Part shown: in pieces, positions 51,331 to 55,086 of the stretch
Layout: the number at the start of each line of letters is the position of its first letter
How positions within the stretch are numbered: the first letter of the stretch is position 1
From: Caulobacter sp.
GTDB lineage: Bacteria > Pseudomonadota > Alphaproteobacteria > Caulobacterales > Caulobacteraceae
Length of the DNA: 64,000 bases
Direction of reading: 5' to 3'
Assembly: GCA_030680355.1 (NCBI GenBank)
Contig: JAUXVF010000018.1
Coordinates: 50,832-114,831 of the forward strand
Program-made: the position numbers and the translations under genes
Notes under the pieces: generated by a model
What the model saw: the letters and a program-made list of their open reading frames with translations, nothing else
Databases searched by the model: none
What the model was told of the DNA's origin: nothing

Positions 51331-51359
51331 ATGACAGTGAGGGATTGCTTCGCTATAGA
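51331..51359 (+). promoter_or_regulatory. Putative sigma70-type promoter for the his leader / hisSZG
   Basis: ATGACA (51331-51336), 17-bp spacer, TATAGA (51354-51359). Confidence 0.5.
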
Positions 51360-51368
51360 CCCGCCCCG

Positions 51369-51443
51369 ATGACCCGCGCCGCGCACCACCATCATGCCCA
51401 CCACGCCATCCCTCGCGGGACGGAACGGGTAAGCGCGGCCTGA
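51369..51443 (+). CDS. Putative histidine-rich attenuation leader peptide (HisL-like)
   Basis: ATG...TGA encoding MTRAAHHHHAHHAIPRGTERVSAA, six His codons in seven residues, immediately upstream of hisS-hisZ-hisG. Confidence 0.75.
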   Translation: MTRAAHHHHAHHAIPRGTERVSAA

Positions 51444-51505
51444 GGCCAGCGCACTGCCCCTCCGGCCCCGCCCGACGCGGATGGGGCTGAAGACAGCTCC
51501 ATCCG
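51430..51505 (+). promoter_or_regulatory. Putative attenuator with alternative hairpins
   Basis: Hairpin GCGCGGCC-tga-GGCCaGCGC; hairpin CGGATGGGGCT (51478-51488)/AGCTCCATCCG (51495-51505); alternative pairing GCCCCTCC with GGAtGGGGC. Confidence 0.5.
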
Positions 51506-51533
51506 GCCTGACTGACCCGATGAGAGTTTTCCG

Positions 51534-53006
51534 ATGACCGACCAGCCTTTCCGTCCTGAAGCCCGCGCGCCACGCGGTTTCGCCGACAAGCGCGCCGCCA
51601 CCCTGCGCGCCGAGCGGCGCATCGTCGAGCAGGTGTCGAAGGTCTATGAGCAGTGGGGCTTCGAGCCACTCGACACCGGGGCGTTCGAATACGCCGACGC
51701 CCTGGGCAAGTTCCTGCCCGACAGCGACCGGCCCAACGAGGGCGTGTTCGCGCTGCAGGACGACGACGAACAGTGGATGGCCCTGCGTTATGACCTGACC
51801 GCGCCGCTGGCCCGGTTCGCGGCGCAGAACTGGGAGACCCTGGCCAAGCCCTATCGTCGCTACGCCTTCGGGCCGGTCTGGCGCAATGAGAAGCCGGGAC
51901 CCGGGCGGTACCGCGAGTTCATCCAGTGCGACGCCGACACCGTCGGCTCGGCCCGGCCCGAGGCTGACGCCGAGATCATCGCCCTGGCCGTCGCCGGGCT
52001 CGAAGCCGCCGGCCTGCCGCGCGGAACCGCGGTGATGAAGATCAACAACCGCAAACTGCTCAACGGCCTGCTGACGGCGGCCGGGGTGGCCACCGAAGGC
52101 CAGAAGCTGGGCGTACTGCGCGCGGTCGACAAGCTTGACCGGCTCGGGACCGAGGGCGTGACCCTGCTGCTCGGCGAAGGCCGCAAGGACGAGTCCGGCG
52201 CCTTCACCAAGGGCGCGGGCCTGACGGCCAAGGCCATCGATTCGGTGCTGGCCTTCGTGGCCGCCGGCCAGACTGATCGCGGCGCGACGCTGGACGCCCT
52301 GAGCAAGGTGATCGGCGGCTCGCCCGAGGGCGACGAGGGGCTGGAGGAACTGGCGAAGATCGACGCGGCCCTCAAGGGTCTGGGCGTCGGCGGCGACCAG
52401 GCGGCCTTCGACCCCTCGATCGTGCGCGGGCTGGAATACTACACCGGCGCCGTGTTCGAGGCTGATCTGCTGCTGGAGACCCTCGACGACAAGGGCCAGG
52501 CGATCCGCTTCGGCTCGATCGGCGGCGGCGGTCGCTATGACGATCTGGTCGCCCGGTTCACCGGCGAGCGGACACCGGCGACCGGCTTTTCGTTCGGCGT
52601 CTCGCGGCTGGCGGCGGCGCTGGCCGCGGCGGGGCGGACCGAGGCCGGGGAGACCCGCGGGCCGGTGGTGGTCATCGCCTTCGACCAGGCCCGGATGGCC
52701 GACTATTTCGCCGTCGCGGCCGAGCTGCGCAACGGCGGTCTGGCCGCCGAGGTCTATCTCGGCTCTTCCGGCATGCGGGCGCAGATGAAATACGCCGACC
52801 GCCGACTGTCGCCCGCCGCGGTGATCATCGGCGAGGACGAGTTCGCCGCCGGGACCGCCACGGTCAAGGACCTCGACCTCGGCCGCGACCTGTCCAGGGA
52901 CATGACCGACAACGCCGCCTGGAAGGCCGAACGGCCGGGCCAGCAGACCATTCCCCGCGCCGACCTGGTCGCCGTGGTCCGCAAGATCGTCGAGGCCGCC
53001 CAATGA
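51534..53006 (+). CDS. hisS: Histidine--tRNA ligase
   Basis: Class II motifs ALRYDLTAPLARFAAQN, YRRYAFGPVWRNEKPGPGRYREFIQCDADTVG, IVRGLEYYTGAVFE. Confidence 0.95.
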   Translation: MTDQPFRPEARAPRGFADKRAATLRAERRIVEQVSKVYEQWGFEPLDTGAFEYADALGKFLPDSDRPNEGVFALQDDDEQWMALRYDLTAPLARFAAQNWETLAKPYRRYAFGPVWRNEKPGPGRYREFIQCDADTVGSARPEADAEIIALAVAGLEAAGLPRGTAVMKINNRKLLNGLLTAAGVATEGQKLGVLRAVDKLDRLGTEGVTLLLGEGRKDESGAFTKGAGLTAKAIDSVLAFVAAGQTDRGATLDALSKVIGGSPEGDEGLEELAKIDAALKGLGVGGDQAAFDPSIVRGLEYYTGAVFEADLLLETLDDKGQAIRFGSIGGGGRYDDLVARFTGERTPATGFSFGVSRLAAALAAAGRTEAGETRGPVVVIAFDQARMADYFAVAAELRNGGLAAEVYLGSSGMRAQMKYADRRLSPAAVIIGEDEFAAGTATVKDLDLGRDLSRDMTDNAAWKAERPGQQTIPRADLVAVVRKIVEAAQ

Positions 53007-54133
53007 GACTGGAGCCCCCCGTTCCCGCCGCCGCCCTGGCGGCCGTTCGCGCGCCGTTCGTCGAGGCCGGGGCGGTGACGCTGGACGTCTCCGTTCTCCA
53101 GCCGCTGGCCCTGCTGCTCGAGCTGTCGGGCGAGGCCATGCGGCCGCGGCTGTTCGTGGTCCAGGCCGAGGGCGGCGAGGAACTGGCCCTGCGCCCCGAT
53201 TTCACCATTCCCGTGGCCCGCGCCCACATCGAGCGCGGCGCCGCCGAGGGTCGGTACGCGTATGAGGGCAAGGCCTTCCGGGCCGCGCCGGCCGGGTCCA
53301 GCCGGGCCGAGGAGTTCCTGCAGATCGGCGTCGAGGCCTTCGGCGGCGGTGACCCAGCAACGGCCGACGCCGAGGTCGCCGGCCTGGCCTGGCGCTCGGC
53401 CGCCGCCGGGGGCCGCAAGGACCTGTCGCTGGTCGTCGGCGACATCGCCCTGTTCGCCGCCTTCGTCGACAGCCTGGGCCTGGCGCCGGCCCTGGCGACC
53501 CGGCTCAAGCGGCTGTTCACCCGGCCGCGGCTGCTGCAGATCGAACTGGAGCGGGCCGAGGCGGGGCAGGGCGCCGCTCCGGCGACGATCATCAATCCGC
53601 TGGAAGGCGTGCCGGCGGGCCAGGGCGAGACCGCCCTGCGCCAGCTGTGGACCATCGCCGGCATCGAACCGGTCGGCGGCCGTCCGGCCGAGGAGATCGT
53701 CCGGCGTCTGGCCGAACGGGCGGAAGCGGCCCGCACGCCGAGCCTGTCGCCGGCCGAGGCTGGCGCGGTGCGCAGATACCTGGCGGTGTCCGGCGCGCCT
53801 GACAGCGCCTTCGCGGCCATCGCCGGCCTGGCCGGACCGGCCACGGCCGCGCTTGACGCCGCCTTGGCCGGCTGGACCCGGCGGCTCGCCGGTCTGGTCG
53901 AACGCGGCGTCCCGGCCGCGGCCGTCACCTTCACCGCCGCCTTCGGGCGCGCCTTCGGCTACTACGACGGTCTGGTCTTCGAGGTGCGCAGCGCCGCCCT
54001 CGGCGAAGAGCGGCCGGTCGCGGCCGGTGGTCGCTACGACAGCCTGCCCGAGCGGCTCGGCGCCGGACCGGGGCAGGGCGCCGTCGGCTGCATGGTGCGG
54101 CCGGCCCGCGCCGTTATGGGAGGCGTGGAATGA
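53003..54133 (+). CDS. hisZ: ATP phosphoribosyltransferase regulatory subunit
   Basis: HisRS-like fold (LRPDFTIPVARAHIERG, YYDGLVFEV, VAAGGRYDSLPERLG) between hisS and hisG. Confidence 0.92.
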   Translation: MRLEPPVPAAALAAVRAPFVEAGAVTLDVSVLQPLALLLELSGEAMRPRLFVVQAEGGEELALRPDFTIPVARAHIERGAAEGRYAYEGKAFRAAPAGSSRAEEFLQIGVEAFGGGDPATADAEVAGLAWRSAAAGGRKDLSLVVGDIALFAAFVDSLGLAPALATRLKRLFTRPRLLQIELERAEAGQGAAPATIINPLEGVPAGQGETALRQLWTIAGIEPVGGRPAEEIVRRLAERAEAARTPSLSPAEAGAVRRYLAVSGAPDSAFAAIAGLAGPATAALDAALAGWTRRLAGLVERGVPAAAVTFTAAFGRAFGYYDGLVFEVRSAALGEERPVAAGGRYDSLPERLGAGPGQGAVGCMVRPARAVMGGVE

Positions 54134-55086
54134 CCGCTCCGCTGATCATCGCCATCCCCTCCAAGGGGCGGCTGAAAGAACAGGTCGAGGCCTGGCTGGC
54201 CGAGGCCGGCCTGCCGATGAGCTCGGCGCCGGGCGGGCGCGGCTATACCGCCGCCATTCCGGCCCTGCCGTCGGTCGAGGTGCGGCTGCTGTCGGCCTCC
54301 GACATCGCCGCGGCCCTGGATTCAGGCGACGTTCACCTGGGCGTCACCGGCGAAGACCTGTTGCGCGAACAGGTGGCCGACCTCGACGCCCGGATCATGC
54401 TGCTGCGCGCCCTCGGCGTCGGCCGTGCCGATCTGATCGTGGCCGTGCCGAGAAGCTGGCTGGACGTCGACACCATGGCCGATCTGGAGGAGGTGGCCCA
54501 TCTGCACCTGCTCCGCACCGGCCGCCGCCTGCGGGTGGCGACCAAATACCTGGTCCAGACCCGGGCCTTCTTCAGCCGCTGTGGCGTGACCGACTACCGC
54601 ATCGTCGAGTCGGGGGGCGCCACCGAGGGCGCGCCGACCTCCGGCGCGGCGGAGATCATCGTCGACATCACCACCACCGGGGCGACCCTGGCGGCCAACC
54701 ACCTGAAGATCCTGAGCGACGGTGTCATTCTCAAGAGCCAGGCCCAGATGGCGGCGTCCCTGTCGGCCGACTGGGACGCGGAGCGGCTGGCGACGGTGCG
54801 ACAGCTGCTGGGCGTGGTCGAGGCGCGGGCGCGGGCGCGGGAGTCGATGATGCTGGTCTGGCCGGCCGAGCGCGACGCGGCGGCCCGGGACGCCCTGACG
54901 GCGCTGGTGGCGCGGGGCGCCCGGCCGCGCGCCAATGGCCTGCTGATCGCCGAGAGGGATCTGCTTGAGGCCCAGCGCCTGCTCGCCGGCGCGGGAATCG
55001 GTCCGGTGGCGGCCAGTCGACCCGAGCATCTCTTTGAACCGGTGTCGGCGGCGGCTGAGGCCCTGGCCGCGAAACTCGCACAGTAA
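54130..55086 (+). CDS. hisG: ATP phosphoribosyltransferase catalytic subunit (HisG)
   Basis: IAIPSKGRLKEQVEAWLAEAG, GVTGEDLLRE, IVDITTTGATLAANHLKILSDG. Confidence 0.94.
   Translation: MTAPLIIAIPSKGRLKEQVEAWLAEAGLPMSSAPGGRGYTAAIPALPSVEVRLLSASDIAAALDSGDVHLGVTGEDLLREQVADLDARIMLLRALGVGRADLIVAVPRSWLDVDTMADLEEVAHLHLLRTGRRLRVATKYLVQTRAFFSRCGVTDYRIVESGGATEGAPTSGAAEIIVDITTTGATLAANHLKILSDGVILKSQAQMAASLSADWDAERLATVRQLLGVVEARARARESMMLVWPAERDAAARDALTALVARGARPRANGLLIAERDLLEAQRLLAGAGIGPVAASRPEHLFEPVSAAAEALAAKLAQ

Follow-up and report, generated by a model that had tools for sequence, protein, structure and literature searches.

The hisS-hisZ-hisG genes in the 64,000-nucleotide stretch of Caulobacter sp. 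DNA analysed here (contig JAUXVF010000018.1, hereafter called the window) are preceded by a small histidine-rich open reading frame (ORF) and a set of competing RNA helices, which probably constitute a ribosome-mediated attenuator of the three genes, sensing uncharged tRNA-His and having, most likely, a translational output. The conservation, covariation, linkage and homologues described here come from sequence comparison, whereas ribosome stalling, the direction of control and the translational output are what we infer. Helices were counted on a 60-sequence alignment of hisS leaders (A1) containing four segments; 1:2, 2:3 and 3:4 denote the pairings between these, and ON and OFF the folds predicted to leave the hisS start region less occluded or to leave segment 4 free to pair with it. 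The features, in window positions, are as follows.

51332 to 51360, + strand: putative promoter ATGACA-17-TATAGA, read from the sequence, with a predicted transcript start on the leader ATG or immediately ahead of it
51369 to 51443, + strand: leader ORF MTRAAHHHHAHHAIPRGTERVSAA, 24 codons, from the ATG at 51369 to the TGA ending at 51443
51384 to 51395 and 51399 to 51404, + strand: putative regulatory His codons of the leader ORF, within the His run
51415 to 51424, + strand: segment 1 (GCGGGaCGGA), A1 columns 11-20, in the leader ORF past the His run; pairs with segment 2
51433 to 51452, + strand: hairpin GCGCGGCC-TGA-GGCCaGCGC at the leader stop codon, read from the sequence, inside the 1:2 loop
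51461 to 51473, + strand: segment 2 TCCGGCCCCGCCC; pairs with segment 1 (ON) or segment 3 (OFF)
51478 to 51488, + strand: segment 3 CGGATGGGGCT; pairs with segment 2 (OFF) or segment 4 (ON)
51495 to 51505, + strand: segment 4 AGCTCCATCCG; 3:4 is the ON hairpin, and the 3' part is also able to pair with the hisS start region
51516 to 51522, + strand: segment 5 (CCCGATG), predicted to pair with the complementary stretch CATCcGG in segment 4
51534 to 53006, + strand: hisS, histidine--tRNA ligase, 490 aa (TIGR00442, 380 bits, above cut-off)
53003 to 54133, + strand: hisZ, ATP phosphoribosyltransferase regulatory subunit (NF008949, 524 bits)
54130 to 55086, + strand: hisG, ATP phosphoribosyltransferase (TIGR00070, 163 bits)

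A first-pass annotation of the same DNA had described a His-rich ORF of 24 codons ending 90 bp before hisS, in front of hisS-hisZ-hisG. The present analysis confirms this ORF, at 51369-51443 with the hisS ATG at 51534, and the three gene identities, each assigned by an NCBIfam equivalog match. The ORF contains HHHHAHH, six His in seven residues, which is the sole 7-residue stretch with at least six His in the six frames of the 64-kb window, the number expected in first-order Markov sequence (30 draws) being 0.0. From their coordinates, hisS and hisZ, and likewise hisZ and hisG, are joined by ATGA overlaps. About 160 bp past hisG there is a match to the CrfA sRNA (RF01527, 55243-55375, + strand, 106.8 bits), and many relatives have a similar arrangement.

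Regions upstream of hisS were compared at 110 Caulobacterales loci, 71 of which have a His-rich small ORF, in keeping with the proposal that a His leader peptide in front of these genes is retained in relatives. The conserved ORF has 23-26 codons, typically reading MTRxxHHHGHHHPTxxxGxGRxRxA, and its stop codon lies 79-178 nt ahead of the aligned hisS start. His codons in 60 leaders are CAC or CAT in the ratio 230:130, a variation indicating that the residue rather than one nucleotide string has been kept. Caulobacter and Phenylobacterium widely carry the leader, which is absent from the sampled Brevundimonas and the single Asticcacaulis; on the HisS tree of 110 rows the trait requires approximately 7 changes. 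The RNA element scored 60-108 bits at leader-bearing loci and was not found at any of the 39 hisS loci lacking the leader ORF (best score 16 bits), so that by these scores the linkage of ORF and RNA element appears all-or-none.

HisS of the window has no His among its 490 residues, and the mean number of His per HisS was 0.86 at leader-bearing and 1.46 at leaderless loci (p = 0.005, kinship ignored); the low His content is consistent with synthesis under His starvation. Two loci from another family of the same order (L190 and L192) have a different short leader (MNTTLHHHHHHA / MNTKPHHHHHHA) approximately 267 nt upstream of hisS which is not accompanied by the Caulobacterales RNA scaffold, and is apparently a separate His leader.

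A TAnn box begins 11-16 nt upstream of the leader start codon in all 71 leaders, a spacing consistent with a leaderless mRNA for the leader ORF, and the earlier suggestion that the leader is translated (nearly) leaderless is thus supported by the relatives. The promoter proposed with it is present as sequence, but it was not called by a consensus promoter scanner in the window. In C. crescentus, 375 leaderless mRNAs have been reported and a leader coding sequence precedes trpS (PMC4117421).

The alignment of upstream regions from Caulobacterales that had been suggested as a check revealed conserved His codons together with compensatory changes in the helices. In A1, 87.2% of cells are paired in helix 1:2, 95.2% in 2:3 and 92.6% in 3:4, with 21, 13 and 32 double-change cells, respectively, versus 8.4, 4.2 and 10.7 in shuffles. 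The double-change cells of all three helices exceed those of every shuffle, a test that kinship among the sequences inflates, and the slid-register control, in which pairing is far lower (34-64% for helix 1:2), agrees in direction. One pair of 3:4 is U-A in 35 sequences and C-G in 21, and at several loci changes in the CU columns of segment 3 are matched in both segments 2 and 4. As read from the alignment, 1:2, 2:3 and 3:4 are mutually exclusive through their shared segments and backed by compensatory changes, as had been proposed for the hairpins of the window. The conservation of segment 1 is not that of RNA only, as this segment is coding. RNAalifold on A1 gave 9 pairs only, probably due to the competing alternative folds, and the helices were therefore counted one by one.

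In the window, the 3:4 hairpin has 11 pairs (51478-51488/51495-51505). The hairpin of GCGCGGCC and GGCCaGCGC named in the first-pass annotation does exist around the leader stop codon; it folds in the window and several relatives. The partner assigned there to GGATGGGGC has to be replaced, as the conserved one is GGCCCCGCC (51464-51472), not GCCCCTCC. Comparison of the window leader with Rfam gave chance matches only (E<=10, E<=5).

The position of the His codons bears on the direction of control. Counted from the first base of the final His codon, segment 1 begins 12-16 nt further on in 53 of 60 leaders, and a stalled ribosome reaches up to 12 nt downstream (PMC4833913), which places the beginning of segment 1 approximately at the leading edge of the stalled ribosome; in the other 7 leaders segment 1 would be covered if the ribosome stalled on the very last His codon. 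As segment 1 comes after the His codons, a stall would leave it free and run-through would mask it. The proposed sequence of events begins with a leaderless mRNA starting at or beside the AUG of the His-rich ORF. Scarcity of charged tRNA-His would stall the ribosome on the His codons, leaving segment 1 free to form 1:2, whereupon 3:4 would form and occlusion of the hisS start region would lessen (ON). With ample histidine, the ribosome would reach the stop codon and mask segment 1, so that 2:3 would form and segment 4 would be available for pairing with the hisS start region (OFF). The translational effect on hisS would be passed to hisZ and hisG through the ATGA overlaps. In the trp and his attenuators of E. 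coli, the first segment is occupied by the stalled ribosome; relative to that geometry, and to E. coli HisL, the control logic appears inverted, the His codons being ahead of segment 1 rather than inside it.

Folding of the 60 sequences with ribosome occlusion, a thermodynamic prediction in part dictated by the occlusion assumed, gave a probability of 3:4 of 0.42 with the ribosome stalled versus 0.01 at the stop codon, and of 2:3 of 0.39 versus 0.76. The predicted gain in start accessibility on stalling was modest, the unpaired probability of the start AUG being 0.38 stalled versus 0.24 at the stop (p = 2e-5), with accessibility taken in the clade of the window at the segment-5 AUG, 14 nt upstream of the hisS AUG.

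Relatives of the element occur before other genes. A covariance model made from hisS leaders alone (R1) was searched against 290 class genomes and had matches in 17. Eight of the matches are Thr or Thr/Lys leaders that immediately precede thrS or asd in other families, and 3 further scaffold matches precede other genes (L121, L128, L131). This finding of thrS and asd leaders with a model of hisS only is the independent test of a shared scaffold. Besides the match to the window itself, the matches L127, L129, L130, L132, L133 and L134 were judged to be chance (L133 by a partial match only). No R1 element was found at hisS of four other families in the order, nor were scaffold copies other than the hisS one found in the same genome. 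A second covariance model (R2), the training set of which included the window and three other hisS sequences, identified 49 places in 36 of 387 class genomes, 48 of them not hisS: 12 thrS, 14 asd, 7 dapA and 15 others, gene names having been checked with family models on representatives only. R2 scores the element of the window, a training member, at 84.4 bits (E 3e-16). In the phylum-wide sample scaffold matches were found within the class only, and the covariation also holds in the homologue set (alignment A4, fitted to the model).

Among residues 2-17, Thr makes up 35% in thrS leaders, Thr 32% and Lys 15% in asd leaders, and Lys 9%, a mild enrichment, in dapA leaders; dapA is probably a user of the scaffold, with the amino-acid specificity of its leaders uncertain. 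The mean number of T in the 9 nt past 2:3 was 6.4 for thrS, 6.2 for dapA, 5.6 for the others and 4.7 for asd (some asd being mis-parsed), suggesting that 2:3 with its U-run usually acts as an intrinsic terminator in the thrS, asd and dapA homologues. The thrS genes with leaders look short: one product (L138 1642-2826) has 395 aa and covers positions 170-559 of the thrS model, and such products may lack the N-terminal editing region. Scaffold members with no clear codon run precede GNAT acetyltransferases (L131, L174, L177, L178, L183), a methyltransferase (L146) and, from sequence reading only, an ABC ATPase (L172, L187); leaders of this kind are possibly drug- or stall-sensing.

These homologues permit a broader reading, which is possible but put forward tentatively, of a reusable alphaproteobacterial attenuator scaffold that differs between users solely in its regulatory codons (His, Thr, Thr/Lys or Lys). 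As a ribosome halted ahead of segment 1 would directly permit the ON fold, an untranslated leader would be constitutively ON, the opposite of trp/his, a 2:3 terminator and a 4:5 sequestor would be worked by one switch, and the members with no codon run may sense drug-stalled ribosomes.

At hisS the output step is probably translational, through a hairpin over the hisS start region, as far as folding can tell. The fold from segment 4 to the start codon was more stable than that of its shuffles at leader loci (mean z -1.65, n = 59) but not at leaderless hisS (+0.19, n = 39; p = 9e-9), which supports, as a possibility, the RBS sequestration that had been considered from the window alone. In a single register, helix 4:5 was 79.1% paired with no covariation, and its registers appear to differ between clades; a 4:5 duplex-versus-shuffle comparison gave a weak mean z of -0.80 for hisS and was flawed for thrS and asd, where segment 4 was mis-located, the local-fold comparison being the cleaner of the two. 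The start-region hairpin is able to coexist with 3:4 in Caulobacter loci such as L018, which accounts for the modest predicted gain in accessibility. The AUG of segment 5 is the hisS start in some relatives, and in the window it opens a 5-codon mini-ORF (51520-51537, + strand; ATG AGA GTT TTC CGA TGA), of which close relatives have short remnants at the same AUG. As the stop codon of the mini-ORF overlaps the hisS start, reinitiation may also contribute in the window.

With the same stall logic, hisS could instead be controlled by premature transcription termination at 2:3, weakly intrinsic or Rho-assisted. The conservation of helix 2:3 (95% pairing), the U-run terminator of most homologues and the retention of TTTTTCTTT past 2:3 in L024 speak for this, but the 9 nt past 2:3 contain a mean of 2.5 T in hisS, with at least 5 in only 3 of 60 sequences, no terminator was called in the window leader, and the start-region fold is confined to loci with the leader. 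Termination is made unlikely at hisS by the missing U-run, and, set beside the U-run of thrS, hisS reads as a derived variant. A canonical attenuator of the E. coli his/trp type, in which a stall masks segment 1 and 2:3 serves as antiterminator to a 3:4 terminator, would share the His-run leader and the mutually exclusive hairpins; it is very improbable, however, since with the His codons upstream of segment 1 a stall would favour 1:2 and 3:4, and the genes would be shut down by starvation. Furthermore, the window has no U-run past 3:4, the aligned relatives show no evident one, and homologues carry theirs past 2:3. The CGGATGGGGCT/AGCTCCATCCG hairpin, read in the first-pass annotation as a possible terminating structure, is best regarded as part of the ON fold.

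Two further explanations are considered extremely unlikely. One is that the conserved element is mainly an opposite-strand sRNA gene, Rfam RF01528 (CC3513), with the His ORF secondary. This family, modelled as an opposite-strand sRNA, coincides with the leader region in close relatives, its matches (57-158 bits) running across the leader at eight Caulobacter and Phenylobacterium loci, opposite hisS (L018 2751-2924, - strand; L094 3033-3206, + strand; L093, L087, L028, L043, L010, L035). There is no RF01528 match in the window, however; the His frame, the -10 box and the linkage to hisS favour the strand of hisS itself, and the homologues precede thrS, asd and dapA on the strand equivalent to that of hisS. 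An sRNA and a hisS-strand leader do not exclude each other, and the matches may reflect a genuine antisense RNA or else a strand assignment that deserves a second look. The other is that the leader ORF acts by coupling or reinitiation, or through its peptide in trans like peTrpL. Reinitiation from leader genes (PMC4833913) and trans-acting leader peptides (PMC7298713) have been reported, and the mini-ORF overlaps the hisS ATG, but the leader stop is distant from the aligned hisS start, by the 79-178 nt given above, and the covarying helices would be left unexplained.

If the attenuator reading is correct, a further aminoacyl-tRNA synthetase operon of a model genus acquires a regulator, and an orphan Rfam sRNA locus (CC3513) a candidate function on the hisS strand. 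One RNA scaffold would be reused class-wide with different codons and inverted ribosome logic, and in the hisS branch a terminator-based attenuator would naturally have turned translational. Judged by its homologues, the scaffold appears to sense amino-acid shortage and to be reusable.

Of the known systems, HisL of E. coli and Salmonella (Rfam His_leader) is alike in its leader with His codons, its alternative hairpins and its sensing of charged tRNA-His, but it controls the his operon, whereas the Caulobacter leader has hisS first. In the E. coli his attenuator the His codons form part of the first segment to pair, and the leader is closed by a U-run terminator, whereas in the leader of the window they precede segment 1 and there is no such U-run. 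The window leader has no match to the enterobacterial His_leader RF00514 (E<=10 and E<=5), nor an Rfam match to a T-box. In bacilli, a His-run ORF is likewise located upstream of hisS* paralogues and of hisZ (Naville and Gautheret 2010, PMC2965389), and no similarity of Firmicutes His leaders to proteobacterial leaders was reported (PMC2965389).

Closer in lineage, the 5'-UTR of an S. meliloti gene annotated as 'aspartate dehydrogenase' contains SEP5, a Ribo-seq-supported small ORF in which six codons are Thr and three are Lys (PMC10117765). It shares with the asd leaders a Thr/Lys-codon ORF in an alphaproteobacterial 5'-UTR and, likened in this way, is possibly an asd member of the scaffold; it would thereby offer independent experimental support for the translation of a Thr/Lys leader. 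The leader ORF of S. meliloti trpL/rnTrpL is leaderless too (PMC10117765), but it belongs to a tryptophan attenuator upstream of trpE. In the same genus as the window, the trpS leader coding sequence and ilvL of C. crescentus are leader ORFs before a synthetase gene and a biosynthetic operon, and hisS goes unmentioned in the main text of that study (PMC4117421). Translational variants of attenuators are recognised (PMC9413887). By its codon run and exclusive structures the hisS leader would fall within the definition of a leader-peptide attenuator, with regulation and the OFF structure as predicted elements. The comparative studies of Vitreschak in 2004 and of Lopatovskaya in 2010 may already predict some of these leaders. 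With such earlier comparative prediction possible, what looks new is the Caulobacterales hisS case, together with a common scaffold that takes different codons, its inverted geometry and the disappearance of the U-run at hisS.
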